Shown piece after piece: positions 17,481 through 29,819 of a DNA stretch of 36,261 nt (the first letter of the stretch is position 1; each line of letters starts with the position of its first letter). Location of the stretch: positions 1-36,261 of the forward strand of contig CALWGM010000089.1 in assembly GCA_944380065.1 (NCBI GenBank), read 5' to 3'. The notes under the pieces are model-generated. The model saw only the letters and a list, made by a program, of their open reading frames with translations. It had not been told where the DNA came from and made no database searches. The stretch is from an uncultured Lachnospiraceae bacterium (lineage in GTDB: Bacteria > Bacillota > Clostridia > Lachnospirales > Lachnospiraceae). A program made the position numbers and the translations under genes.

Positions 17481-18572
17481 ATGACAAAGATTGATATTGT
17501 TTCCGGATTTTTAGGAGCAGGCAAGACGACTCTGATCAAGAAAATGCTGGAGGAGGTTTTCAGCGGCGAAAAGGTCGTCCTGGTAGAGAATGAGTATGGG
17601 GAAGTGGGCATCGACGGCGGATTTTTGAAGGATTCCGGGATTGAGATCCGGGAGCTGAATTCCGGCTGCATCTGCTGTTCCCTGGTGGGAGATTTCAGCA
17701 GGAGCTTAAAAGAGGTGATCGAGACCTACCATCCGGACCGGATTCTGATCGAGCCCTCCGGCGTGGGCAAGCTTTCCGATGTAATGAGTTCTGTCAAAAA
17801 GATGGAAGGGGACTACGGGGATGTGAAGCTGAACGCCCTGGTGACGGTTGCCAACGCCATGAAGGTTTCCAAACAGATGAAAGCCTTCGGCGAGTTTTTC
17901 AATAACCAGATCGAGAATGCCACCACGATCGTGCTGAGCCGTACACAGAATGCAAAGCCGGAGAAGTTAGAGCTGTCTGTCCATCAGATCCAGCAGCTGA
18001 ACCCGAAGGCCGCGATCATTACCACACCCTGGGATGAGATCACGGGAGGGCAGATCCTGAAGGTGATCGAGGGGCAGAAGTCCCTGATGGATGAGATGAT
18101 GGCAGAGTTTGAGGCTGATCATGAGCATCATCACGACCATGACCACGATCATGAGCATCATCACGGCCATGACCACGATCATGATCATGAGCATCATCAC
18201 GGCCATGACCACGACCATGAGCATCATCATGACCATGATCATCACGATCACGACCATGCGTGCTGTCATGACCACCATCATGATCACCATGCAGATGAAG
18301 TGTTTACCAGCTGGGGACGGGAGACTCCCCACAAGTTCACCAGAGAGCAGATTGAGGAGATCCTGAAAGCATTCTGCGATACAGAGGAGTACGGTACGGT
18401 TCTCCGTTCCAAGGGGATGGTTCCGGCCCAGGATGGAACCTGGATTTATTTTGATATGGTTCCCGGCGAGTATGAGCTGCGCCAGGGCGAACCGGACTAT
18501 ACCGGACGTCTCTGCGTGATCGGCACCGATCTGGACGAGGATAAGCTGGAGACAGTATTTGGCTTAAAATAA
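17481..18572 (+). CDS. CobW/COG0523-family GTP-binding metallochaperone with His-rich segment
   Basis: This is a G3E GTPase of 363 residues. Walker A is GFLGAGKTT (residues 9-17). ENEYGEVGIDG and the metal-binding CICC motif (63-66) follow, then LIEPSGVGK (switch/Walker B). The guanine-specifying NKxD motif is degenerate (VLSRTQNAKP). Residues 214-270 hold more than 30 histidines alternating with Asp and Glu, a likely metal reservoir, before the CobW C-terminal domain (TPHKFTREQIEEILKAF onward). Family members insert or store zinc, cobalt or nickel; the His-rich tract suggests zinc or nickel. The start follows AGAAGGAAGAAGC. The gene forms an operon with the second P-loop protein 26 bases downstream. 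Confidence 0.88.
   Translation: MTKIDIVSGFLGAGKTTLIKKMLEEVFSGEKVVLVENEYGEVGIDGGFLKDSGIEIRELNSGCICCSLVGDFSRSLKEVIETYHPDRILIEPSGVGKLSDVMSSVKKMEGDYGDVKLNALVTVANAMKVSKQMKAFGEFFNNQIENATTIVLSRTQNAKPEKLELSVHQIQQLNPKAAIITTPWDEITGGQILKVIEGQKSLMDEMMAEFEADHEHHHDHDHDHEHHHGHDHDHDHEHHHGHDHDHEHHHDHDHHDHDHACCHDHHHDHHADEVFTSWGRETPHKFTREQIEEILKAFCDTEEYGTVLRSKGMVPAQDGTWIYFDMVPGEYELRQGEPDYTGRLCVIGTDLDEDKLETVFGLK
18115..18290 (+). repeat. Degenerate tandem repeats encoding the His/Asp tract
   Basis: Repeated units built from GATCATGAGCATCATCAC and GGCCATGACCACGATCAT encode the His-rich region of the GTPase. Such repeats expand and contract easily, so the length probably varies among strains. Confidence 0.8.
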
Positions 18573-18598
18573 GCCTGCAGGAAAGGATTGAAACAGGT

Positions 18599-19543
18599 AT
18601 GGACATACCAGTATATTTATTTACCGGTTTTATGGACAGCGGCAAGACGTCCATGATCACCCAGACGCTGCTGGAGAATGATTTCGGCGTGGGCGCCCGT
18701 TCCCTGGTGATTGCCTGCGAGGACGGCGACGTGGAGTATGACGAGGAGAAGCTGGCCCAGAAGCGGGTGACGGTTGTGGGCGTCGATTCGGAGGAGGAGT
18801 TTACGGCTGATTTTCTGAAGGACTGCGACGCTGCCATGCAGCCGGATATGGTGTTTATTGAGTATAACGGCACCTGGGAGGGGGCAAAGATCCTGGAGAT
18901 GGAGCTGCCGAAGGACTGGCAGATCGTACAGATCCTGACAACGGTGGACGCCTCCACCTATGAAATGTACCTGAGCAACATGCGCTCCATGATGATGGAG
19001 CAGGTGTTTGCCTCGGATGTGGTGATTTTCAACCGCTGTACAGACGAGACGCCCAAGGCGAAGTTCCGCCGCTCGGTAAAGGCGCTGAACCGCAAGGCGC
19101 AGATCGTCTATGAGCGGGAGGACGGCCAGATCGACCAGGGGGATGATGAAGAGCTTCCCTACGATATCAGTCAGGATTTCCTGGATATTCCGGACGAGGA
19201 TTACGGGATTTTCTATCTGGATGTGCAGGAGCACCCGAAACGCTACGAGGGGAAAACCATCCGTTTCCTGGCGCTGGTTTACCGGCCGGAGAAGTTCGGG
19301 AAAAAACCGGTGTTTGTTCCCGGACGGTTCGCCATGACCTGCTGTGTGGAGGATATCCAGTTTATCGGCATGAAGTGCAAATATGATAAAGCGAACCAGA
19401 TCCCCCACAAGTCCTGGGTCAATCTGACGGCAGAGATCCATGTGGAGTTCGCAAAGGAGTACCGGGGCAAAGGTCCGGTGCTGTATGCGAAAGAGGTGGA
19501 GCCCACCACGGCGCCCCAGGAGGAACTGGTGTATTTTACTTAA
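18599..19543 (+). CDS. Second CobW-like P-loop protein with DUF1980/TIGR03943-like C-terminus
   Basis: The 314-residue protein begins like a CobW GTPase (IPVYLFTGFMDSGKTSMI, Walker A at residues 10-18). It lacks the CxCC metal motif: the equivalent place reads IACEDGDVEYDEEKL. The NKxD site is replaced by IFNRCTDE. From about residue 200 it changes to DYGIFYLDVQEHPKRYEGKTIRFLALVYRPEKF, VPGRFAMTCCVEDIQFIGMKC and SWVNLTAEIHVEF. This resembles the C-terminal OB-like domain of YcgQ/TIGR03943 (DUF1980) proteins, found in zinc-regulated permease partners. It appears to be a natural fusion and a partner of the upstream GTPase. Metal delivery to a membrane partner is inferred; no permease is adjacent. 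Confidence 0.72.
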   Translation: MDIPVYLFTGFMDSGKTSMITQTLLENDFGVGARSLVIACEDGDVEYDEEKLAQKRVTVVGVDSEEEFTADFLKDCDAAMQPDMVFIEYNGTWEGAKILEMELPKDWQIVQILTTVDASTYEMYLSNMRSMMMEQVFASDVVIFNRCTDETPKAKFRRSVKALNRKAQIVYEREDGQIDQGDDEELPYDISQDFLDIPDEDYGIFYLDVQEHPKRYEGKTIRFLALVYRPEKFGKKPVFVPGRFAMTCCVEDIQFIGMKCKYDKANQIPHKSWVNLTAEIHVEFAKEYRGKGPVLYAKEVEPTTAPQEELVYFT

Positions 19544-19585: not shown

Positions 19586-19872
19586 ATTCCAAAGTGAATC
19601 ACAGATGAAACCGATGACAGAGAAGAGTAGGCTTTTTCTAAAATCACAGAGAGCCGCCGATGGTGGGAAGGCGGTATGGCAGGATCAGCTGAATGGCCTC
19701 TGGAGGGCAGTTCCGAAAGGTGATGAGTAGGGGCTGACGGGGAGCGGACCCGTTATCCGGCCGGCATGTATGATGGTGCATGTAGTGAGAGTGGACATTT
19801 TGTCAATTTGAGTGGTACCGCGATAATATTAGTTTATTACCGTCTCAGGATTTTTCCTGAGGCGGTTTTTTA
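19586..19872 (+). promoter_or_regulatory. T-box riboswitch, specifier UGG (tryptophan)
   Basis: The leader has the classical parts in order: the kink-turn GA region and AGAGAAGAGTA (S-turn strand) in stem I, the distal AGAGAGCCGCCGATGGTGGGAAGGCGG stem, and the specifier strand GAATGGC before CTCTGGAG. Pairing CAGAG with CTCTG places TGG (19694-19696) in the specifier loop, the tryptophan codon. The T-box sequence AGTGGTACCGCG (19811-19822) lies before an intrinsic terminator. Uncharged tRNA-Trp would stabilise the antiterminator and switch the operon on. The UGG reading was made by eye and agrees with the TrpXYZ-like genes downstream. Confidence 0.9.
19839..19872 (+). terminator. Regulated terminator of the T-box
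   Basis: ACCGTCTCAGGA (19839-19850) pairs with TCCTGAGGCGGT (19855-19866, one G-U) and is followed by TTTTTT. Confidence 0.9.
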
Positions 19873-19933
19873 CTGTGATGGAACTGTGAAAACCCGAAGA
19901 ATGTAAGGAGGAAATCCCCAAGGGGATACCTGT

Positions 19934-19969
19934 ATGGGCAGAAATCAGCCCGAAGAAGGAGGAAAATGA
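19934..19969 (+). CDS. Possible 11-residue leader peptide before the binding-protein gene
   Basis: A short frame encodes MGRNQPEEGGK and its TGA overlaps the ATG of the next gene (ATGA). The nearest AAGGAGG (19905-19911) is 22 bases upstream. The hairpin ATCCCC-AA-GGGGAT (19914-19927) between them would shorten the effective distance to eight bases. It contains no Trp codon. Translation is speculative. Confidence 0.25.
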   Translation: MGRNQPEEGGK

Positions 19970-21033
19970 TGATGAAAAGGAAAATGGCAGCCTGCCTTTT
20001 CGCAGGAGTTTTGGGAACATTGATGCTGGCCGGATGCGGCGGCGGGGCAGGAGATCAGGGATCCGCGTCGGCGGAAAATGCTTCCGGCGACGTCTATAAA
20101 GTAGGTATCGTCAATTATGTGGACGACGCGTCCCTGAACCAGATCGTGGAGAATATCCAGAAAGAGTTAGACGCGAAGGGAGAAGAGCTGGGCGTGATTT
20201 TTGACTATGAAAATTATTATGACAATGCCCAGGGCGATTCTTCCGTATTAAATCAGATCGCCGCCGACCAGGTGGCCAACAATGTGGACGTGGTAGTGGC
20301 GATTGCTTCGCCGGTGGCCATCGTGATGCAGACGGCCACAGAGGGAACGGACATCCCGGTGGTGTTCTCCGCGGTGACCGATCCGGTGGGAGCCGGTCTG
20401 GTGGATTCCATGGACGCGCCGGGCGGCAATATTACCGGAACCTCCGACGCGCTGGACACCGCATCCATCATGGAGCTGATGAAAGCGCAGAACCCGCAGC
20501 TGGCAAAGATCGGGCTGCTCTATGATACGGCGCAGGACTCTTCCGAGCTGGCCATCGAGGAGGCAAAGGCATGGTGTGAAGAGAACCAGGTGGAATATGT
20601 GGAGAAGACAGGCAGCACCACAGAGGATATTCAGCTGGCGGCAGATTCCCTGGCGGCAGAGAAGGTAGACGCTGTGTTCACCCCTACGGACAACAGCATT
20701 ATGACAGCGGAACTGACCATCTATGAAACCTTTGCGGACGCCGGAATCCCCCACTACTGCGGCGCGGACTCCTTTGCCTTAAACGGCGCGTTCTGCGGGT
20801 ATGGCGTGGATTACGCGAACCTGGGCGTGATGACCGGCGATATGGTGGTGGATATTTTGGTGAACGGCGCGGATCCGGCAGAGACCCCGGTACAGACCTT
20901 TGATAACGGGATCGCCACCATCAACACGGAAATCTGTGAGGAGTTAGGGCTGGATGTGGAGACAGTCAAGGCCACTTTTGAGCCGCTTTGCACACAGGTA
21001 AAAGAAATTCAGACTGCAGAAGAGTTTGAATAA
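19966..21033 (+). CDS. trpX: ABC transporter substrate-binding lipoprotein, TrpX type
   Basis: The 355-residue protein has a lipoprotein signal (MMMKRKMAACLFAGVLGTLMLAGC; lipobox LAGC with Cys24), so it is anchored outside the cell. The mature part has the two-lobed ABC_sub_bind fold of the TrpX/LivK-like family: VYKVGIVNYVDDASLNQIVENIQKEL at the start, then DVVVAIASPVAIVMQ, IPVVFSAVTDPVGAGLVDS, ITGTSDALD, and VDAVFTPTDNSIM. In other Firmicutes the trpXYZ operon is controlled by a tryptophan T-box, as here with specifier UGG. Tryptophan is therefore the probable ligand. The start follows AAGGAGGAAA. The permease begins 16 bases after the stop. Confidence 0.87.
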   Translation: MMMKRKMAACLFAGVLGTLMLAGCGGGAGDQGSASAENASGDVYKVGIVNYVDDASLNQIVENIQKELDAKGEELGVIFDYENYYDNAQGDSSVLNQIAADQVANNVDVVVAIASPVAIVMQTATEGTDIPVVFSAVTDPVGAGLVDSMDAPGGNITGTSDALDTASIMELMKAQNPQLAKIGLLYDTAQDSSELAIEEAKAWCEENQVEYVEKTGSTTEDIQLAADSLAAEKVDAVFTPTDNSIMTAELTIYETFADAGIPHYCGADSFALNGAFCGYGVDYANLGVMTGDMVVDILVNGADPAETPVQTFDNGIATINTEICEELGLDVETVKATFEPLCTQVKEIQTAEEFE

Positions 21034-21048
21034 CAGGAGGAATCAATT

Positions 21049-21993
21049 ATGGCAGCATTTTTTACCCCCGCCATACTTCAGAGCGCGCTGGAACAGGGAC
21101 TGATCTACGCACTGATCGCCCTGGCGCTGTTTCTGAGCTATTCAATGTTAAATGTCTGTGACCTTTCCACGGACGGATGCTACACCTTGGGCTGCGCCAC
21201 CGGGGCGGTGGTGGCCATTGCCGGCTATCCCATCCTGGCGATATTCGCGGCCATGGGCGTGGGTGTCTGCTCCGGGATGGTGAATGCTTTCCTGCAGACC
21301 AAAATGAAGGTGGAGAGCATGCTGGCCGGAATCATCGTGAACACAGGGCTATATACCATCAATATCACGATCATGGGAAAATCCGTGCTCAGCATGAACG
21401 ATACGGAGACGCTGTTCACGCGCCTGCAGGATCTGCTGGAGGGGACGCCCCTTGAAGGCGCCTATCAGCTGATCCTGGCGGCGGTGTTCGCGGCGGTGGT
21501 GCTGGTGCTGCTGTTGCTGTTTCTGAATACCAGGCTGGGGCTTTCCATCCGTGCCACCGGCGATAACCCGGACATGGTGAAATCCTCTTCCATCAACCCG
21601 GCCTTTACCACCACGGTAGGGCTGTGCATCGGCGGAGCCATGACGGCGCTGGCCGGATGCCTGATCGGTGAATACCAGAAGTCCTGTGATATCAATATGG
21701 GTACCGGTATGGTGACAGTGGCTCTGGCTTCCCTGATCATCGGCGAAACCATTTTCGGGAAATGTTCCATTAAAGTGCGGGCAGTGGGCGTGATCGCCGG
21801 ATCCTGCCTGTACCGTGTGATCGTGGCCGTCGCGCTCCGTTTCGACCTGCCGGCCACCGCCCTGAAGCTGGTTTCCGCCATCATCGTAGGCGTGGCCATT
21901 TCCATGCCGGCCATTAAGCAGATCATTGCCTTCCGCAGGACAAAAGCGGCGGCCATGGCAAAACGCAGGAAAATGCAGGGAGGTGGAAAATAA
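21049..21993 (+). CDS. trpY: ABC transporter permease, TrpY type
   Basis: The 314-residue membrane protein has about eight hydrophobic helices and belongs to the branched-chain amino acid permease superfamily (LivH-like). Visible blocks are LEQGLIYALIALALFLSYSMLNVCDLSTDGCYTLGCATGA, KVESMLAGIIVNTGLYTINI, TRLGLSIRATGDNPDMVKSSSI (the coupling EAA-like loop) and ALASLIIGETIFG. It would form the pore for the amino acid bound by the lipoprotein. The start has AGGAGG upstream; its stop overlaps the ATPase start by one base (TAATG). Confidence 0.87.
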   Translation: MAAFFTPAILQSALEQGLIYALIALALFLSYSMLNVCDLSTDGCYTLGCATGAVVAIAGYPILAIFAAMGVGVCSGMVNAFLQTKMKVESMLAGIIVNTGLYTINITIMGKSVLSMNDTETLFTRLQDLLEGTPLEGAYQLILAAVFAAVVLVLLLLFLNTRLGLSIRATGDNPDMVKSSSINPAFTTTVGLCIGGAMTALAGCLIGEYQKSCDINMGTGMVTVALASLIIGETIFGKCSIKVRAVGVIAGSCLYRVIVAVALRFDLPATALKLVSAIIVGVAISMPAIKQIIAFRRTKAAAMAKRRKMQGGGK

Positions 21994-22793
21994 TGCTTCA
22001 GCTGATCGACATATCAAAAACATTTAACAGGGGAACGGTGAATGAAAAGACGGCGCTGAGCCATCTGAACCTGGATGTAAAAGACGGTGATTTCATCACC
22101 ATCATCGGCTCCAACGGCGCCGGGAAATCCACCATGTTCAACGCCATCTGCGGCACCTTTTTCGTGGATGACGGCGCGGTGATCCTGGATGGGCAGGATA
22201 TTACCTACGAGCATGATTTTGCCCGCAGCAAATACATCGGTCATCTGTTCCAGGATCCCATGAAGGGCACGGCGCCCCATATGAGCATCGAGGAAAATCT
22301 GGCGCTGGCTTACCTGCGGGCTTCCGGCGGCCGGGGCAGGATCTTCAGCCGGGTGAGCAAAAAAGAAAAGGAGCTGTTCCGCGAGAAGCTGGCGCTCCTG
22401 GATATGGGGCTGGAAGACCGGATGAAAAACCCGGTGGGACTTCTGTCCGGCGGGCAGCGGCAGGCGCTGACCCTTCTGATGGCAACCCTGATAACGCCGA
22501 AGATCCTGCTTTTGGATGAGCACACGGCGGCGCTGGATCCGGCCACAGCGGAAAAGGTGCTGAACCTGACCAAAAAGATCGTGGCAGAGAACCATCTGAC
22601 CTGTCTGATGATCACCCACAACATGCAGTCGGCGCTGGAACTGGGGAACCGGACGATTATGATGAATTCGGGAAATATCATCCTCGATTTAGAGGGGGAG
22701 GAGCGGGACGGCCTGACGGTGGACGACCTGCTGGAGAAGTTCAAAGAGGGCGTGGGCGCCCAGTTAGACAACGACCGGATGTTGTTGTCATAG
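21993..22793 (+). CDS. trpZ: ABC transporter ATP-binding protein, TrpZ type
   Basis: The 266-residue ATPase has Walker A IIGSNGAGKSTMFNAI (about residues 36-51), Q-loop HLFQDPMKGTAPHMSIEENL, signature LLSGGQRQALTLLMA (about 150), Walker B ILLLDEHTAALDP and switch His in MITHNMQSAL. The LivF/LivG-like pattern fits the LivH-like permease upstream. It completes a three-gene importer under tryptophan T-box control. A bidirectional terminator follows. Confidence 0.9.
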   Translation: MLQLIDISKTFNRGTVNEKTALSHLNLDVKDGDFITIIGSNGAGKSTMFNAICGTFFVDDGAVILDGQDITYEHDFARSKYIGHLFQDPMKGTAPHMSIEENLALAYLRASGGRGRIFSRVSKKEKELFREKLALLDMGLEDRMKNPVGLLSGGQRQALTLLMATLITPKILLLDEHTAALDPATAEKVLNLTKKIVAENHLTCLMITHNMQSALELGNRTIMMNSGNIILDLEGEERDGLTVDDLLEKFKEGVGAQLDNDRMLLS

Positions 22794-22850: not shown

Positions 22851-23207
22851 TTATTTTGCCGGAGGCAGAAGAATAACCAGCATCTGAGCGGTTGTAGGTC
22901 CGATGTTCTTTACACATTTGCCGTAGTTGGAAGCAATATGTACGGAATCGCCTGCGTTCAGCACAGTCTCGGTGCCGTCCTCAGCCTTGAATAACATCGT
23001 TCCCTCAATGATATAGTAGATAGACTCAGCCGGGTTCTTGCCCATGTCTGTGCCGCCGCCGCTGGGAAGGAAATGGGATAAGCCGTTGATCAGCTGTCCG
23101 CCATCTACATCCTGGGGATCATGCAGTCTGCATAATTTGCACTCGGAATGTCCCGGAGCTGTGTAAGTATAGTACTCGTCTTTTTTGGTGATTTTATAAC
23201 CTGCCAT
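22851..23207 (-). CDS. Small single-domain cupin protein
   Basis: The 118-residue protein is one cupin barrel. ESIYYIIEGTMLFKAEDGTETVLNAGDSVHIASNYGKCVKNIGPTTAQMLVILLPP shows the two conserved cupin motifs, with G-D-x-V-H and the second-motif position weakly conserved. The N-terminus holds SECKLCRLHDPQDVDGG with possible metal-binding Cys and His. I chose ATG 23207, preceded by AAAGGGTGG; upstream codons overlap the promoter region. It is transcribed divergently from the phloroglucinol-type operon with a strong promoter of its own. It could be an isomerase, a ligand-binding regulator or an accessory protein of the pathway. Substrate and activity are unknown. Confidence 0.75.
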   Translation of the reverse strand: MAGYKITKKDEYYTYTAPGHSECKLCRLHDPQDVDGGQLINGLSHFLPSGGGTDMGKNPAESIYYIIEGTMLFKAEDGTETVLNAGDSVHIASNYGKCVKNIGPTTAQMLVILLPPAK

Positions 23208-23249
23208 AAAAATATCCACCCTTTCTTGTGTTGATTTTTTACAAACCCC

Positions 23250-23278
23250 AGTATACACCCGTTAAAAAAAGAAATCAA
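23250..23278 (-). promoter_or_regulatory. Promoter of the cupin gene
   Basis: On the minus strand TTGATT (23278-23273) and TATACT (23255-23250) are 17 bases apart, 43 bases before the ATG. Confidence 0.7.
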
Positions 23279-23338
23279 TCACTTTGCACGAAAATTACAA
23301 AAAAATTGAATATTCCATCTTGTTCCTTATAAAGAATA

Positions 23339-23378
23339 ACCATATGGTACTGTGATTACTTAAGGGTTACTAAATAAC
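23339..23378. promoter_or_regulatory. Palindromic candidate operator region
   Basis: Between the two divergent promoters lie the 10-base palindrome ACCATATGGT (23339-23348) and the dyad GTTA-CTAAA-TAAC (23366-23378). They are natural candidates for the GntR regulator encoded at 27923. The rest of the 326-base spacer is AT-rich and holds no gene. Confidence 0.3.
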
Positions 23379-23391
23379 ATTATTGTGTGTA

Positions 23392-23420
23392 TTGCATAAA
23401 AAAAACAGTTGATTTATAAT
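23392..23420 (+). promoter_or_regulatory. Promoter of the phloroglucinol-type operon
   Basis: TTGCAT (23392-23397) and a perfect TATAAT (23415-23420) are 17 bases apart. This gives a leader of about 107 bases that contains AACC-AAA-GGTT-like dyads but no terminator. Confidence 0.7.
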
Positions 23421-23533
23421 GGACATGATGAAAATAACCAAAGGGTTTTTGGGGTATTTCTCACAGGATTGATTTCATACGCTGTCTGGCGGTAGTGAAA
23501 TAAATTATATATCTTAAAGGAGGATTTTTAGAA

Positions 23534-24361
23534 ATGGTTAATTTGGACAAGAATTTTGTGCAGAACATGTACTCTGTTGAAGGCAAAGTTGCTCTGGTTA
23601 CCGGCGGTACCGGCGCTCTGGGAAGCTGCCTTGCAAAGGCATATGGTTATGCAGGAGCAAAGGTTATGCTGACAGGACGTAAGCTCAATGCCAAAGCGCA
23701 GGAGGTTCTTGACGAGTTTAAGGCAGAGGGCATCGAGTGCTCCTTCTGCGCAGCAGATCCTCAGGATGAGGAGCAGGTAAAGAACCTGGTTGCAGAGACA
23801 GTTAAGACATACGGCAGAATCGACATTCTTGCAATTTGCCATGGCTTTAATAAACCTCAGAATATTCTGGATCAGTCTGTAGCTGAGTGGCAGTACATTA
23901 TGGATGCTGACTGCAAATCTGTTTATGTTGTCTGCAAATATGTTGCTGAGCAGATGGTTGCACAGGTTGGCGACCAGGCTGGCAAGATCGCTTCCGGTAA
24001 GGGCGGCAAGATCGTAGTTGTTACCTCCCAGCGTTCCAAACGCGGTATGGCCGGATATACAGGTTACTGTACATCCAAGGGCGGCGCAGACCTTATGGTT
24101 GCTTCCATGGCTTGTGACCTTTCCGCTAAATATGGTATCAACATCAACTCCATTCTTCCGACTGTATTCCGCAGCGACCTGACTGAGTGGATGTTTGATC
24201 CCGATTCCGAAGTATATAAGAACTTTATGAAACGTGAGCCGATCGGACGTCTTGCTGAGCCCAACGATTTCGTTGGTATGGGAATCTTCCTTTCCTCTGA
24301 CGCTTCCAACTTCCTGACCGGCGGCAACTATGACTGCTCCGGCGGATACCTGAACTGCTAA
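23534..24361 (+). CDS. Short-chain dehydrogenase, probable phloroglucinol reductase
   Basis: The 275-residue SDR has the cofactor motif [20 protein letters not shown] (about residues 17-36), then ILAICHGFN in the NAG position. The catalytic part reads [29 protein letters not shown] with Tyr-x-x-x-Lys (YCTSK), and the C-terminal [13 protein letters not shown] is typical. SDR enzymes of this kind reduce phloroglucinol with NADPH to dihydrophloroglucinol in anaerobes. The assignment rests on its neighbours: the operon supplies all three other enzyme families of that pathway. Codons favour GTT, GCT, GGT and CGT, unlike the rest of the window, a sign of high expression. A strong AAAGGAGG precedes the start. 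A generic gluconate-type SDR is the alternative. Confidence 0.8.
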
Positions 24362-24401
24362 TCAAAATTCGATCAAGTAGTATTAATTTGGAGGAAATCA
24401 T

Positions 24402-25346
24402 ATGTTATCAAAGTTTGTTGTATGCGGTTCCGGCATGATGGGTGCCGCAATCGCACAGATTCTTGCAAGTATTGACGGGGCACAGGTTACGATCCTTCGT
24501 TCTTCCAACCGCGGCGCAGATCCGCGCGAGAAAGTACGCGGCAACATGAAGCAGCTGGTTGAGAAGGGCGTTGTTACACCGGAATATGTGGATGAGATCG
24601 TTTCTAAGATCAGCATCGCTTTTGAAGACAGCGAAGTTGCGGATGGCGAGCTTTTCATCGAGTGCGTACCGGAGGTTATGGAGCTGAAACAGGATCTTTT
24701 CGCCCGTCTGGAGAAGACAGTTTCCGAGAAGGCCATCTTCTGTACCAACACATCCGTTATGAGCCCTACAGAGATCTCCGCAAAATGCGAGCACAAAGAG
24801 AGAATCTGCGGTACTCACTTCTGGAATCCGGCATTCCTGATTCCGCTGGTAGAGGTTGTTAAGACAGAGTACACCTCTGACGAAGTGATCAACACAGTTA
24901 TGGAAGTAATGAAAGCAGCCGGCAAACAGCCCTGCCTGTGCAAGAAGGACGTTCCCGGTTTCATCGCCAACAGAATGCAGCATGCATTATGGCGTGAGGC
25001 GATCGCTATCGTTGATGAGGGCATCGCTGATGCTGAGACTGTTGACCTTGCCTGCAAGACAAGCTTCGGCCTGAGACTTCCGTACCTGCCTCCGCTTGTA
25101 AACTCTGATATGGTTGGCACACAGCTGACATGGAACATCCACAGCTATGTACTTGCACATCTGGCAGACAACCATGAGCCTTCACCGATCTTAAAGACCA
25201 TGCTTGACGAGGGCAAGCTGGGCTTCCGTGCTGAGGCTGACGCAGAAGGCAAACGGACAGGCTTCATGTCCTACACAGACGAGGAGATCGCGAAGATCAA
25301 TGCCGGCCTGAATGAGTATCTGATCAAGATGCTTTACGACAAATAA
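24402..25346 (+). CDS. 3-hydroxyacyl-CoA-dehydrogenase-family enzyme, probable 3-hydroxy-5-oxohexanoate dehydrogenase
   Basis: The 314-residue protein has an N-terminal Rossmann fold (KFVVCGSGMMGAAIAQILAS, about residues 4-23). It has the catalytic region IFCTNTSVMSPTEIS and CGTHFWNPAFLIPLVEVV (HFxNP, catalytic His), then VPGFIANRMQHALWREAIAIVDEG in the dimerisation domain. L-carnitine dehydrogenase and (S)-3-hydroxy-5-oxohexanoate dehydrogenase belong to this family. Next to a cyclase-family hydrolase and a BKACE enzyme, oxidation of 3-hydroxy-5-oxohexanoate to triacetate (3,5-dioxohexanoate) is the best fit. A carnitine role is less likely, because the cyclase and SDR have no place in that route. 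GGAGG precedes the start; the spacer from the reductase is 40 bases. Confidence 0.8.
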   Translation: MLSKFVVCGSGMMGAAIAQILASIDGAQVTILRSSNRGADPREKVRGNMKQLVEKGVVTPEYVDEIVSKISIAFEDSEVADGELFIECVPEVMELKQDLFARLEKTVSEKAIFCTNTSVMSPTEISAKCEHKERICGTHFWNPAFLIPLVEVVKTEYTSDEVINTVMEVMKAAGKQPCLCKKDVPGFIANRMQHALWREAIAIVDEGIADAETVDLACKTSFGLRLPYLPPLVNSDMVGTQLTWNIHSYVLAHLADNHEPSPILKTMLDEGKLGFRAEADAEGKRTGFMSYTDEEIAKINAGLNEYLIKMLYDK

Positions 25347-25354
25347 GATCCGCA

Positions 25355-25425
25355 GCTGCCGCTGGCAGCGGGAGATACCTATCACAGGTTGATAATACCG
25401 GGCGCTGCCCGCAGGGCCCGGTATT
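25355..25425 (+). other. Two hairpins in the spacer between the dehydrogenase and cyclohydrolase genes
   Basis: GCTGCC-gct-GGCAGC (25355-25369) is followed by AATACCGGGC (25394-25403) pairing with GCCCGGTATT (25416-25425), with an inner CTGC/GCAG. No U-tract follows, so these are more likely mRNA stabilising or processing structures than terminators. Confidence 0.6.
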
Positions 25426-25472
25426 TGAAATAATCACAAAATTTATTTATCTATTACAGGAGGGAACTGACA

Positions 25473-26483
25473 ATGGGAAAGAAAGTTTGGGTAGACCTTA
25501 CACATCCGTTCAGCGCTGAGATTCCGCGTTGGCCTTATTTTGACAAACCGGTAATCGACAGCAAACATTCTATGGCGAAAGGCGGCGTGTTAACACAGTA
25601 CATTGGATGTACAATGCATACCGGTACACACTGTGATGCACCGCGTCACGTTATGGAGCGTGAGTTTGACGGAAGAAGAGCCCGTTATACACATGAGATG
25701 GCAATCGACGCTTACACCGGAGATGCTGTATGCCTGGATCTGCACTTTATGAAACGCTGGGAGCTGATCACAGCTGAGCATCTTGACAAAGCCTGCCGCA
25801 ACATGGGTATCGATCCTGATTCCGACTACTTACAGGGTAAGGTTCTCTGCCTCTGCACAGGTATGCATCTGAAGTTTGATGACTCCAAAGAGTACTATCA
25901 TTACTCCACAGGTACAGGCCGTTCCGCTGGTATCTGGTTTGTAAAACATGGTGTAAAATGTGTAGCTATGGATATGCAGGCTCTGGATCATCCTCTTCAT
26001 ACTGCTATGGGTAACAACGGTATGACAAGAATGAACCTGCTTGGCGCATCCGGAAAACCGATCATCGAGGAGTTCATCGAGGAGTTCGGTGAGGAAGCAT
26101 ACGCTCCTTTCGAGAAAGAGTACTACGTAAAATATTACGGACAGGAAGCATACGACGAGTTCTACGGCCCGCTTGAGGCAATCGGCAACTGGGGAACCTG
26201 GGAGCCCTGCCACAAGACCATGCTTGGCCATGGTATCGTTGGTGTTGAGAACCTGGGCGGCGACCTTGAGAAGGTTTGCGGCAAAGAGTTCGAGTTCTTC
26301 TGCTTCCCGCTTCGCTGGTACATGGGCGACGGCTCCATGGCTCGCTGCGTAGCACGTATCGATGAGGATGACCTCAATGATGTTCCGGAGAGAACATATC
26401 TGTACTGCGGTACAGGATGCCAGGATAGAGAGCACTACGGCTTCGATGATTATGAGAAGTTCGCAGCTGATCCGGCTATCTAA
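25473..26483 (+). CDS. Cyclase-family metal hydrolase, probable dihydrophloroglucinol cyclohydrolase
   Basis: The 336-residue protein belongs to the cyclase/kynurenine-formamidase family. It opens WVDLTHPFSAEIPRWPYF. The metal-binding signature is CTMHTGTHCDAPRHVME (HxGTHxDxPxH, about residues 49-65), and SAGIWFVKHGVKCVAMDMQALDHPLHTAMG follows in the core. The C-terminal extension of about 100 residues makes it longer than formamidases (about 210). In the phloroglucinol pathway a cyclase-family enzyme opens the ring of dihydrophloroglucinol to 3-hydroxy-5-oxohexanoate, which fits its place among the reductase, dehydrogenase and lyase. CAGGAGGG precedes the start. Two hairpins lie in the 126-base spacer upstream and one after the stop. 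Confidence 0.8.
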   Translation: MGKKVWVDLTHPFSAEIPRWPYFDKPVIDSKHSMAKGGVLTQYIGCTMHTGTHCDAPRHVMEREFDGRRARYTHEMAIDAYTGDAVCLDLHFMKRWELITAEHLDKACRNMGIDPDSDYLQGKVLCLCTGMHLKFDDSKEYYHYSTGTGRSAGIWFVKHGVKCVAMDMQALDHPLHTAMGNNGMTRMNLLGASGKPIIEEFIEEFGEEAYAPFEKEYYVKYYGQEAYDEFYGPLEAIGNWGTWEPCHKTMLGHGIVGVENLGGDLEKVCGKEFEFFCFPLRWYMGDGSMARCVARIDEDDLNDVPERTYLYCGTGCQDREHYGFDDYEKFAADPAI

Positions 26484-26508
26484 TCCGATCTGACAAGTTA
26501 TCAGATGT

Positions 26509-26552
26509 GCAAAACAGATTGCACAGGTTCGCCTGTGTATATCTGTTTTTGC
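26509..26552 (+). terminator. Terminator-like hairpin inside the operon
   Basis: GCAAAACAGAT (26509-26519) pairs with ATCTGTTTTTGC (26541-26552, one bulged T), and CACAGG-TTCG-CCTGTG forms the inner stem with a stable UUCG-type loop. The stem runs into TTTTT, so partial termination before the lyase gene is plausible. It may equally protect the upstream mRNA end. Confidence 0.65.
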
Positions 26553-26597
26553 CGGTTTCATATTTCAAATGTTTTATAAAAAGTGAGGAAATGAACA

Positions 26598-27464
26598 ATG
26601 GCAAAGAAAACAATTATCACAGCAGCTGTTACAGGCGCATGGCCGAAAAAAGAGAATAACCCGAACGTACCGATGACTCCTTCAGAGATCGCTGATGATA
26701 TGTATGCATGCTGGAAGGCAGGCGCTGCAATCATCCACATCCATATGAGAGATGACGAAGGCAACGGAACAATGGATCACAATAAATTCCGTGAGACCAT
26801 GCAGATCTTCAACGAGAGATATCCGGACTGCGATGTTATCGTTAACATGACAACATCCGGCGATATCCACGCAGATGACGAGACCCGTGTACAGCACATC
26901 AAAGAGCTGAAACCGGAGATGGCTTCCTATGACTGCGGTTCCATGAACTGGCTGAACAGCGGTTTGTTCTTAAACAGCCCGAAATTCCTTGAGGACTGCG
27001 GCAAACTGTTCCAGGAGACCAATACAAAACCGGATATCGAGTGCTTCGATCCTGGTATGATCCTGAACTGCGCATACTACATCAAGAAAGGTATCTTAAA
27101 GACACCGGTTCACATTCAGTTCTGCATGGGCTGCGCAAATGGTATCCCCGGAACCATGAAGAACCTTGCGTTCATGAAAGATACTGCTGATGAGCTCATC
27201 GGTAAAGGCAACTATACATGGTCTTGCTTCGGCGTAGGTCACAGCGCAATGGAAATGCTGTACGGCGGCGTAGCAATGGGCGGACATGTACGTGTTGGTA
27301 TGGAAGATAACGTTATGTACTCCAAGGGCGTTCTTGCAGAGAGCAATGTACAGTTCGTAGAGAGAGCTGCCCGTGTGATCAGAGAGTTCGGCAACGAAGT
27401 TGCTACACCTGCTGAGGCACGTGAGATGCTCAACATGGGACCCTACAGAAGAATTGAGGCTTAA
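26598..27464 (+). CDS. BKACE-family lyase, probable triacetate acetoacetate-lyase
   Basis: The 288-residue protein is a beta-keto acid cleavage enzyme (BKACE, formerly DUF849). It opens KKTIITAAVTGAWPKKENNPNVPMTPSEIADDMYACWKAGAAIIHIHMRDDEG, with the zinc-binding HIHMRD (about residues 47-52). Later blocks are CDVIVNMTTSG, IECFDPGMILNCAYYIKKG and MGGHVRVGMEDNVMYSKGVLAESN (second zinc and CoA-binding region). BKACE enzymes react a beta-keto acid with acetyl-CoA to give acetoacetate and a new CoA ester. With triacetate they would yield acetoacetate and acetoacetyl-CoA, the last step of phloroglucinol breakdown. 3-Keto-5-aminohexanoate or dehydrocarnitine cleavage are the other family activities. 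GTGAGGAAATG precedes the start. Confidence 0.83.
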   Translation: MAKKTIITAAVTGAWPKKENNPNVPMTPSEIADDMYACWKAGAAIIHIHMRDDEGNGTMDHNKFRETMQIFNERYPDCDVIVNMTTSGDIHADDETRVQHIKELKPEMASYDCGSMNWLNSGLFLNSPKFLEDCGKLFQETNTKPDIECFDPGMILNCAYYIKKGILKTPVHIQFCMGCANGIPGTMKNLAFMKDTADELIGKGNYTWSCFGVGHSAMEMLYGGVAMGGHVRVGMEDNVMYSKGVLAESNVQFVERAARVIREFGNEVATPAEAREMLNMGPYRRIEA

Positions 27465-27478
27465 GTAAGGAGCGAATT

Positions 27479-27667
27479 ATGACCTGGGGATCACTCATGT
27501 TTTATTATCATTGTCCGAAATGCGGCATGAAGTTTGAGTATGCCATGGAACTGATGCCGGAGTTTGGGGAGAAGTTTGGTTTCTGCCCCGAGTGCGATGT
27601 TCCGGGAGTATATGAAAAGGAAGGTGCCCGTCAGTTAGACGACAGTGAGTATTTTGAAGTAGAGTAA
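27479..27667 (+). CDS. Small zinc-ribbon protein (FmdB/rubredoxin-like)
   Basis: The 62-residue protein has two CxxC knuckles, YYHCPKCGMKF (about residues 10-20) and GFCPECDVPG (about 34-43), then an acidic tail. It begins 14 bases after the lyase stop with AAGGAG upstream, so it belongs to the operon. An internal ATG (27497) giving MFYYHCPKCG is a possible second start. Function is unknown; it might bind zinc or iron for the metal-dependent cyclohydrolase or lyase, or act as a regulator. Confidence 0.7.
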   Translation: MTWGSLMFYYHCPKCGMKFEYAMELMPEFGEKFGFCPECDVPGVYEKEGARQLDDSEYFEVE

Positions 27668-27673
27668 GAGTTT

Positions 27674-27709
27674 CGCCATCCGCATCTGATGCGGATGGCG
27701 GATTTTTTT
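27674..27709 (+). terminator. Terminator of the phloroglucinol-type operon
   Basis: CGCCATCCGCAT (27674-27685), loop CTG, ATGCGGATGGCG (27689-27700), then GA and seven T. A perfect 12-pair stem. Confidence 0.92.
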
Positions 27710-27711
27710 CA

Positions 27712-27740
27712 TTGCAAAACAGGGGCGGATATGGCATAAT
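27712..27740 (+). promoter_or_regulatory. Promoter of the gntR-family gene
   Basis: TTGCAA (27712-27717) and CATAAT (27735-27740) with a 17-base spacer. Confidence 0.6.
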
Positions 27741-27749
27741 AGATGAGAT

Positions 27750-27788
27750 AAAATCTGCTTTTTGATAAGATGCAGAAAAACAGATTTT
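27750..27788. promoter_or_regulatory. Inverted repeat at the start of the gntR transcript
   Basis: AAAATCTG-C-TTTTT (27750-27763) and AAAAA-CAGATTTT (27776-27788) are reverse complements apart from one bulged C, with a 12-base loop. It lies just downstream of the predicted start point. It is either an operator for autoregulation or a 5' mRNA hairpin. The arm AAAACAGAT also occurs in the hairpin at 26509. Confidence 0.45.
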
Positions 27789-27922
27789 GTGGATACAGAA
27801 TTTTTTCAGCCGGCGGTTTTCAGAGCAGAGAGAGCTGAAAGATATGGAAAAGGAACAGGAAGGGTCCGCAGGATATATCCGGGGGGATTCCCGGAGGATC
27901 AGGCTGTGGAGAGAGTGTTGAG

Positions 27923-28606
27923 ATGGCAGTAATTAAGAGAGTTTCATTGGTAGACCAGGTTTATGAGAAGATCCGGGACCGGATCATTTCTTTAAAGATC
28001 CCGTTTGGGAGCAAACTGAATGTCAGCAAGCTCCAGGAGGAGTACGGCGTCAGTTCTACGCCGGTCCGGGAGGCGCTGAACCGTCTTTTGAATGACGGAT
28101 TGATTGAATTGGAAAATAATGTGGGAGCCAGGGTGATCGATATCACGGCGGAGGATGTGCGGCAGATCCAGGAGCTGTCCTTTGCCTATCAGATTGTGGC
28201 GGCCCGCAATGCGTTAAAAAACGGGGACAGGGCGCAGATGGCGGAGGAGATTGAACAGTATATTGAGGAATACCGCCATTCCACGAATGTGGTGGAGAGC
28301 TGCCGCTGTATCCGCAACATTCTGGATGTTTTTTACAAAAATGCCAATAATGAGCGTCTGCTGGCAAAGGTGACTTCCATAAATGCCATGGATGATATTC
28401 TCCATACCCTGTTTGCCATTCCACGTGAGAAGGGCGGCAGCGGCGGCCAGTACCATTCCGGCATCATTTATTTTGAGCAGATCCACCAGGCCGTGACGGA
28501 GAATGATTTTGCCGGTCTGTGTGACAGCTTAGAGGAGCACCAGCTCTGGTCCAGGGAATATATTGTAAAGAATTTAGAGACAGTAAAGAAGAAAAACGAA
28601 GCATAA
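27923..28606 (+). CDS. GntR-family transcriptional regulator, FCD (FadR-like) type
   Basis: The 227-residue protein has an N-terminal winged helix (VDQVYEKIRDRIISLKIPFGSKLNVSKLQEEYGVSSTPVREALNRLLNDGLIEL, about residues 10-63) and an all-helical C-terminal effector domain of FCD type (about 75-220). The metal-binding histidines of FCD domains are poorly conserved. It directly follows the phloroglucinol-type operon and has its own promoter, so it is the natural regulator of that operon, probably sensing an aromatic or keto-acid intermediate; this is inferred from position. It ends in a terminator shared with the convergent HxlR gene. Confidence 0.85.
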   Translation: MAVIKRVSLVDQVYEKIRDRIISLKIPFGSKLNVSKLQEEYGVSSTPVREALNRLLNDGLIELENNVGARVIDITAEDVRQIQELSFAYQIVAARNALKNGDRAQMAEEIEQYIEEYRHSTNVVESCRCIRNILDVFYKNANNERLLAKVTSINAMDDILHTLFAIPREKGGSGGQYHSGIIYFEQIHQAVTENDFAGLCDSLEEHQLWSREYIVKNLETVKKKNEA

Positions 28607-28661: not shown

Positions 28662-29075
28662 TCAGGATTTCTTTTTGCTGCTGACATACTGATCCATGAT
28701 ATCCATCAACTGGTCCTGGTACTTCATCTCGTCGTGTACCTTAAAAGCATCCGGGTCAATCGGCAGATGCAGCTCGTTGAGCCGGCGGATACTCCATACA
28801 TAAAGGATGTCCAGCGCGGGGATCAGATCCTCGCCCAGCGGCGTCAGGATATATTCTACCTTTAATGGAATCGTATTATACTGGATACGCTCTACCAGGC
28901 CGTCCTTGGTCAGCTCTTTTAACTGCTGGCTGAGAACCTTTTCACTGACGCCCAGTGTCTTTTTCGTCTCATTAAAACGGATCTTGCCGTAATGGTGGAT
29001 ATGATGCAGCAGCGTCATCTTCCATTTCCCGGAAATACAGTTTGTGACAAAATGATAAGGATTAACGGTTTCCAT
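28662..29075 (-). CDS. HxlR-family winged-helix transcriptional regulator
   Basis: The 137-residue protein has the HxlR domain: NCISGKWKMTLLHHIHHYGKIRFNETKKTLGVSEKVLSQQLKELTKDGLVERIQYNTIPLKVEYILTPLGEDLIPALDIL (about residues 12-90). The single Cys13 before GKWK sits where redox-sensing HxlR proteins such as YodB and HypR carry their reactive cysteine. GGGAGG precedes the ATG at 29075. It is divergent from the C_GCAxxG_C_C gene across a 279-base spacer with GTATCA repeats. A thiol or quinone stress response is plausible but unproven. Confidence 0.88.
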   Translation of the reverse strand: METVNPYHFVTNCISGKWKMTLLHHIHHYGKIRFNETKKTLGVSEKVLSQQLKELTKDGLVERIQYNTIPLKVEYILTPLGEDLIPALDILYVWSIRRLNELHLPIDPDAFKVHDEMKYQDQLMDIMDQYVSSKKKS

Positions 29076-29160
29076 TGTGATGCCTCCCTTCTGGTATATT
29101 GATACTGCGCGCGGCGGATATGATGCCGCCCAGTCGTTTGACCTTGCGAAAAGTTATCAG

Positions 29161-29209
29161 GTATCATTTTGGTAACTCATAACTTATGTCATATTGTATC
29201 AGTTTGGTA
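29161..29209. promoter_or_regulatory. Direct repeats, candidate HxlR operators
   Basis: GTATCATTTTGGTA (29161-29174) and GTATCAGTTTGGTA (29196-29209) match at 13 of 14 bases with a 35-base period. A further inverted-type copy, GGTATATTGATAC, occurs near 29094-29106 by the HxlR start. Repeats of this kind beside an HxlR gene suggest autoregulation. Confidence 0.45.
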
Positions 29210-29354
29210 GGAATATTGCAATTGCTATTCTGACAAAAAAATTCACAAAATTCCGAAAAGAAAAAACGGAGAAATAGTGCAAAAAATTGTAAAAACGTGT
29301 AAAATAACAGATTGACAGTGAAAATGAATGAGAGTACAGGAAGGAGCAGCAGAA

Positions 29355-29819
29355 ATGGCAGAAGAATATCAGAGAGAAGAAGCGGCGGACAGGGTATTGA
29401 CCATCGAGGAGAGAGTGCGGATGATCCCGATCCTGCACCGGAAAGGATATACCTGCGCCCAGACGGTTCTCTGCGTCTATGCGGACCTGCTCGGCATGGA
29501 CGAACGGGATCTGTTCCGGATCTCCGAAGGGTTTGGCGGCGGCATGGGCGGCATGATGCTGACCTGCGGCGCGGTAACCTCTATGGCCATGGCGGCGAGC
29601 CTGAAAAACAGCTGCGGCGATCCGGAGAACTGCAGTACAAAGGGATCCAGCATCCGCCTGGTGAAAAGGCTGGCCACACAGTTTCAGGAGAAAAACGGTT
29701 CGGTGATCTGCCGGGAGCTGAAAGGGATGGATACCGGGAAGGTTCTGCGGGACTGCCCCGGCTGTATCGAGGACGCCATCCGGATCATGGGAAGAGAACT
29801 GTTCGGCCTGGAATCCTGA
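29355..29819 (+). CDS. C_GCAxxG_C_C family (redox-type) protein
   Basis: The 154-residue protein carries the family features: YTCAQTVLCVYADLLG, GFGGGMGGMMLTCGAVTSMAMAAS (CGAVT block), and cysteines in SCGDPENC, VICRELKG and RDCPGCIEDA. Proteins of this family are thought to bind a cluster or take part in redox reactions, but no activity is established. ATG 29355 is chosen because AAGGAG lies eight bases upstream; the frame upstream (from 29328) has no good ribosome site. Its divergent partner is a cysteine-bearing HxlR regulator, hinting at a redox-sensing pair. Confidence 0.75.
   Translation: MAEEYQREEAADRVLTIEERVRMIPILHRKGYTCAQTVLCVYADLLGMDERDLFRISEGFGGGMGGMMLTCGAVTSMAMAASLKNSCGDPENCSTKGSSIRLVKRLATQFQEKNGSVICRELKGMDTGKVLRDCPGCIEDAIRIMGRELFGLES

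Follow-up and report, generated by a model that had tools for sequence, protein, structure and literature searches.

The stretch of DNA analyzed here, from now on the window, is a 36,261-nucleotide contig (CALWGM010000089.1) of an uncultured Lachnospiraceae bacterium, whose genome assembly amounts to 2.69 Mb in 160 contigs with a completeness of 95.7%. It carries four enzyme genes in the same orientation, predicted to code for phloroglucinol reductase (PGR), (S)-3-hydroxy-5-oxohexanoate dehydrogenase (TfD), dihydrophloroglucinol cyclohydrolase (DPGC) and triacetate acetoacetate-lyase (TAL). They are followed by a gene for a small zinc ribbon protein (ZnR) and flanked by a divergent cupin gene and by regulators of the GntR and HxlR families (Table 1). 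The intergenic gaps are 40 bp between PGR and TfD, 126 between TfD and DPGC, 114 between DPGC and TAL and 14 between TAL and ZnR. The cupin likely starts at the ATG at 23207, rather than at a GTG at 23258. The operon promoter was picked by eye and from the alignment, and was not listed by the consensus scan because its -35 box matches only three of six consensus positions. In strength, the hairpin behind ZnR ranks among the top two terminator-like hairpins of the stretch, and therefore the GntR gene is probably on a separate transcript. The original prediction had described one island reaching from the cupin to GntR, with the four enzyme genes in one operon. HxlR, which lay just outside its limits, belongs to the island as well.

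Table 1. Features of the phloroglucinol locus in the window.
Feature	Positions	Strand	Basis
Cupin_2 protein, no metal motif, 118 aa, divergent from operon	22851..23207	-	Pfam 38.7 bits
Candidate operator ATTACT-N5-GTTACT (step 11 bp), then AAATAAC	23355..23378	+	Conserved block upstream of PGR, window clade
Candidate operon promoter TTGCAT, 17 nt, TATAAT; weak -35	23392..23420	+	Kept in aligned window-clade upstream regions
Predicted PGR, SDR family	23534..24361	+	Pfam SDR; PDB matches 5g4k/5g4l
Predicted TfD	24402..25346	+	Pfam 3HCDH_N + 3HCDH; catalytic residues
Predicted DPGC	25473..26483	+	Pfam Cyclase; W20, Y22
Predicted TAL, type A	26598..27464	+	BKACE 355 bits, E 4e-106; W15; C179, C210
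ZnR, 62 aa	27479..27667	+	CPKC...CPEC
Intrinsic terminator-like hairpin at operon end	27672..27702	+	14 pairs, then TTTTTTT
GntR-family regulator	27923..28606	+	Pfam GntR 64.7 bits
HxlR-family regulator, candidate for operon control	28662..29075	-	Pfam HxlR 85.9 bits
Inverted-repeat element upstream of HxlR	29151..29185	.	16-nt arms, 81% complementary; - strand GTTACC-N5-GATACC

Two sets of sequences were used for comparison. The first comprised 87 loci (the best 80 of 286 relatives plus 15 further stretches, minus 8 duplicates), in which we recognized PGR in 73, TfD in 69, TAL in 67, the cupin in 53, ZnR in 30, HxlR in 26 and GntR in 14. These tallies are lower bounds, since contig ends cut many of the loci, and many loci are close kin. 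The second was a survey of 299 genomes of the family, 15 of them carrying DPGC at E <= 1e-60, against 284 others. The nearest named relatives of the window locus are uncultured Lachnospiraceae or Clostridiales genomes, and the only hint of a gut habitat is what the database records of some relatives suggest.

Positions 23534-27464 very probably encode the enzymes of the anaerobic phloroglucinol route. The motifs on which the original prediction had based the four-enzyme assignment were all located, TGGTGALG and YCTSK in PGR, HFWNP in TfD, HTGTHCDAPRH in DPGC and HIHMRD in TAL, and the comparison with characterized enzymes that it proposed bears the assignment out down to diagnostic residues. 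The best PDB sequence matches of PGR are 5g4k/5g4l (441 bits, with the next sequence at 115), which we take to be a characterized phloroglucinol reductase, the PDB listing naming only an SDR. TfD keeps the catalytic residues S118, H139 and N190, judged by position and alignment. The pathway itself is already known, and the main text of the study on Clostridium scatologenes shows PGR, DPGC, TfD and TAL of that organism to perform the four steps (PMC10470551). The same text gives as diagnostic of DPGC a Trp20 and a Tyr22 in place of Ile32 and Leu34 of isatin hydrolase, and both are present in the window and invariant in 10/10 aligned relatives. With the DPGC of Eubacterium oxidoreducens DSM 3217, a species listed among the reported phloroglucinol degraders (PMC10470551), the window enzyme shares 88% identity. 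For TAL, the diagnostic change is a Trp (Trp16 in C. scatologenes) instead of Glu14 of the lysine-fermentation enzyme Kce (PMC10470551). W15 of the window TAL sits at this site, and the same Trp is found in 32/33 rows of type A, to which the window enzyme belongs (the remaining row has a gap), and in 32/32 of type B. His47 and His49 are invariant in both types, and type A carries the conserved C179 and C210.

The original prediction had named carnitine or lysine-fermentation intermediates as the substrates that would overturn it. In such a beta-keto acid route, the Kce and 3HCDH homologs would act in their annotated roles, and the best NCBIfam match of TAL is indeed the lysine-fermentation Kce (NF052387). 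However, it scores 292.5 bits against a curated cut-off of 382, the Glu14 of Kce is replaced as described above, and DPGC has no place in such a route. TfD, in turn, reaches 124 bits with the carnitine dehydrogenase models, which have cut-offs of 414 and 592. The alternative is disfavored, and we give it hardly any probability. TAL also matched NF053538 (3,5-dioxohexanoate:acetyl-CoA acetone transferase) with 244 bits, below the cut-off of 430, and was therefore not filed under it.

A second alternative is that the substrate of the four enzymes is not phloroglucinol itself but a substituted form of it or some other 1,3-dicarbonyl, whether cyclic or linear. It would fit the DPGC-TfD-TAL loci without a recognized PGR found in Martelella, Klebsiella, Spirochaetales and Chloroflexota (L087, L088, L093, L094 and L104), so that another reductase may feed them; some of these loci are cut by contig ends, and the stretches of L094 and L104 begin shortly before DPGC. 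It would also fit the greater variability of PGR among near kin of the window (L033-L042), in which PGR is 64-76% identical and DPGC 95-99%, and the cofactor motif of the window PGR, T-G-R-K, with a Lys where the published NADPH motif is given as TR(S/N) (PMC10470551). Nevertheless, PGR is by far nearest to 5g4k/5g4l, E. oxidoreducens carries the same gene set, and the Lys is found in 15 of 74 PGR rows, together with Asn in 44, Ser in 10 and another residue or a gap in 5. We thus regard a different substrate as improbable and retain phloroglucinol. One observation that weighs against assigning function by neighborhood is that the TALs of the two Chloroflexota loci (L094 and L104) have an Ile at the Trp15 site and, therefore, co-location alone is no proof of a TAL.

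The uneven identities of PGR and DPGC make the operon look mosaic. In L029, from the same genus, the situation is reversed, with 77% identity to the window for PGR and 69% for DPGC. A recent transfer of DPGC was considered as the cause of its high identity in L033-L042 and rejected. At four-fold sites, identity is 50-68% for DPGC versus 31-63% over TfD, PGR and TAL, i.e., only somewhat higher, and constraint on the protein therefore explains most of it. Also in PGR, a 10-residue insert (residues 145-154, window 23966-23995) is absent from 5g4k and common to 13/74 rows.

The zinc ribbon follows one lineage of TAL. ZnR was found in 12 of the 15 DPGC genomes and in none of the 284 others, and in all 12 carriers it adjoins TAL, including on contigs without DPGC and, in the stretches read, without TfD. 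Two genomes (G219 and G224) have the TAL-ZnR pair together on DPGC-less contigs, and in E. oxidoreducens the pair is inverted. Among the 87 loci, ZnR stands beside TAL in 30/32 with a type-A enzyme and in 0/35 others. On the TAL tree it accompanies 33/35 rows of one lineage and 0/36 of the rest, a distribution requiring 3 changes versus a mean of 23.6 in shuffles. Although a passenger of one TAL lineage, a small RNA- or DNA-binding regulator or a partner of TfD would also be conceivable, an explanation to which we assign a little under an even chance, the adjacency to TAL in every carrier and the invariance of 17 of its 62 positions across 17 rows argue against it. None of the Pfam or NCBIfam models matched by ZnR is matched above its cut-off, and sequence and structure matches are too weak to give it a named relative, absence from the listed matches proving nothing. 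Two kinds of exception count against a tight link: in G416 a divergent ZnR adjoins TfD and accompanies the other TAL type, and no ZnR is present in the type-A loci L027 and L106. Type A and ZnR are thus not strictly coupled, and ZnR can be dispensed with. With all this, we see about even odds that this TAL lineage has ZnR as a partner; if so, ZnR might act as a small subunit, a stabilizer or a helper at the metal site.

At E <= 1e-12, the cupin family was detected in 15/15 DPGC genomes and in 1/284 others (Fisher p ~2e-24, relatedness ignored). In most of the 53 cupin-bearing loci the gene lies directly upstream of PGR, in divergent orientation in the window clade, and in the Chloroflexota loci L094 and L104 between DPGC and TfD. 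The canonical metal motif of cupins is G(X)5HXH(X)3-4E(X)6G. No HxH was found anywhere in 54 aligned rows of this family, most of which have isolated His residues (one or two) in the barrel part. Three residues, His20, Glu61 and Tyr64, do not vary among 25 rows. The AlphaFold model (pLDDT 90.8) is a confident cupin barrel, with TM1459 as the nearest structure and KdgF among the further matches. Several observations speak for a less specific protein. The cupin and DPGC are on different contigs in G154, G219, G224, G229 and G230. In G219, G224 and G230 the cupin stands amid unrelated genes, its neighbors in G229 resemble thiolase, 3HCDH and CoA-transferase genes, and G159 has an additional copy beside an SDR and transporter-like genes (all these names were given by eye from translations). 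No DPGC was found in G091, the one other carrier, and the window cupin is only 27-37% identical to 21 of 24 other aligned cupins. From the other contigs, the neighbors in G229 and G159 and the DPGC-less G091, a wider role may apply. We would give the cupin a one-in-two chance of being a further pathway component. In that case it would most likely act metal-free on an intermediate of the 1,3-dicarbonyl type, for instance by keto-enol tautomerization of dihydrophloroglucinol, or would bind it, and metal-free action on 1,3-dicarbonyls would fit the settings to which the cupin is linked.

As for regulation, the aligned upstream regions of PGR share a conserved block, roughly GGTTACnnnnnnGTTACTnnATAAC, with TATAMT downstream of it in the window clade, and those of HxlR contain a direct repeat that is related to it and recurs in steps of 11 bp. 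In the form GWWAC-N6-GWWAC, the repeat is present in 15/27 HxlR upstream regions (shuffles: mean 0.14, largest 2), in 8/74 of PGR (mean 0.36, largest 2) and in 6/9 of the cupin, which is the same intergenic stretch as that of PGR. It is absent upstream of TfD (0/76), DPGC (0/87), TAL (0/68), GntR (0/15) and PNP (0/8). At E <= 1e-40, a close homolog of HxlR was found in 9/15 DPGC genomes and 0/284 others, all nine on the DPGC contig, and in Catenibacillus, Scybalocola, Coprococcus catus and Anaerostipes it is located divergently upstream of cupin-PGR. GntR lies closer to the operon and has the same orientation, which speaks for it as the regulator. However, it has a close homolog in 14 of the 87 loci versus 26 for HxlR, its upstream regions lack the repeat of the PGR promoter, and HxlR is confined to genomes with DPGC (a genome test covering HxlR alone), so that control by GntR seems less likely. 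The direct repeat common to the promoters of HxlR and the operon makes HxlR the likelier regulator, and we consider this assignment, drawn from sequence comparison, to be probable. It is weakened by the fact that the form of the repeat was picked after the data had been seen, in loci that are related; that all eight PGR matches fall within the window clade; that the copy upstream of PGR in the window itself, with ATTAC, fits a looser pattern only and misses the strict form; and that 6/15 DPGC genomes have no HxlR match at the threshold used. HxlR could sense the phenolic substrate or a product and control both the operon and itself through the 11-bp direct repeats.

By homology and diagnostic residues, the PGR-TfD-DPGC-TAL-ZnR operon would convert phloroglucinol to acetoacetate plus acetoacetyl-CoA. 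PGR would reduce phloroglucinol with NADPH to dihydrophloroglucinol, the ring of which DPGC would open hydrolytically; TfD would oxidize 3-hydroxy-5-oxohexanoate to triacetate, and TAL would cleave the latter with acetyl-CoA. Phloroglucinol may be supplied by the same genome, which has four genes above the cut-off of PF18089 (the DAPG/phloretin hydrolase family) and one match below it, versus none in 14 control genomes. The four genes are on separate contigs (C15, C3, C110 and C71; L138-L141) and reach 76-117 bits, compared with the PhlG equivalog cut-off of 600. Their number suggests several acyl-phloroglucinol substrates. The products may be drained by a thiolase and a CoA-transferase encoded outside the operon; the genome has a strong thiolase match on another contig and a two-gene CoA-transferase on another contig as well.

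Upstream of the cluster (19605-22793) there is an ABC transporter with substrate-binding protein, permease and ATPase, preceded by an Rfam T-box leader (109.8 bits). A role as the uptake system was considered but not supported, as the transporter has its own T-box leader and a homolog of its binding protein is found in 4/87 loci; it probably imports amino acids, not phloroglucinol. Further upstream (17481-19543) lie two genes for CobW-type GTPases, of which the second carries DUF1980 at its C-terminus. This second gene was rejected as a specific metal-supply partner, being present in 86/100 family genomes. Beyond HxlR, positions 29328-29819 code for a C_GCAxxG_C_C putative redox protein (Pfam 108.7 bits).

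When plant flavonoids are broken down anaerobically, phloroglucinol remains as the product of their A-ring, and once it is opened the polyphenol carbon ends up as acetate and butyrate. We tentatively propose, although we hold it rather doubtful as a whole, that the four-enzyme set is incomplete and would be extended by a metal-free cupin general in dihydrophloroglucinol metabolism and by a second TAL lineage (C179, C210) with a near-obligate 62-aa ZnR, all under an HxlR phenol sensor. If the cupin and ZnR were true parts, reconstitutions limited to the four enzymes may be lacking a reaction or a subunit and marker-gene surveys would gain specific markers, while HxlR, if its role is true, offers a testable inducer switch. 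In the searched literature, mostly without subscription papers, there was no report on the phloroglucinol pathway with a cupin (judged by title) or with HxlR, and nothing on 3-keto-5-aminohexanoate cleavage with a zinc ribbon. The combination of cupin, type-A TAL with ZnR and HxlR control is a variant not described in the main text of PMC10470551. This agrees with the original prediction, which placed the cupin, ZnR and GntR outside the published set; these terms occur 0 times in that main text, where a transporter and a transcriptional regulator are mentioned with no family named.

The closest described system is the C. scatologenes cluster (Zhou et al. 2023, PMC10470551), which agrees with the window in its four enzyme families, in their diagnostic residues and in the clustering of the genes. 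However, the window has ZnR behind TAL and the divergent cupin, neither of which is named in that main text, and the C. scatologenes cluster has a transporter and, according to its Discussion, thiolase and CoA-transferase homologs that are absent from the window operon (PMC10470551). E. oxidoreducens DSM 3217 (L043) shares the cupin, PGR, TfD, DPGC, TAL, ZnR and HxlR, but its cupin is co-directional with PGR, its TAL-ZnR pair is inverted behind DPGC, and no GntR homolog was found within the stretch examined. Among the structural relatives, TM1459 and KdgF differ from the window cupin, whose family is without the HxH metal motif. Finally, the lysine-fermentation Kce (2y7d) belongs to the BKACE family like TAL (204 bits), with His47 and His49 kept, but has Glu14 where the window TAL has a Trp.

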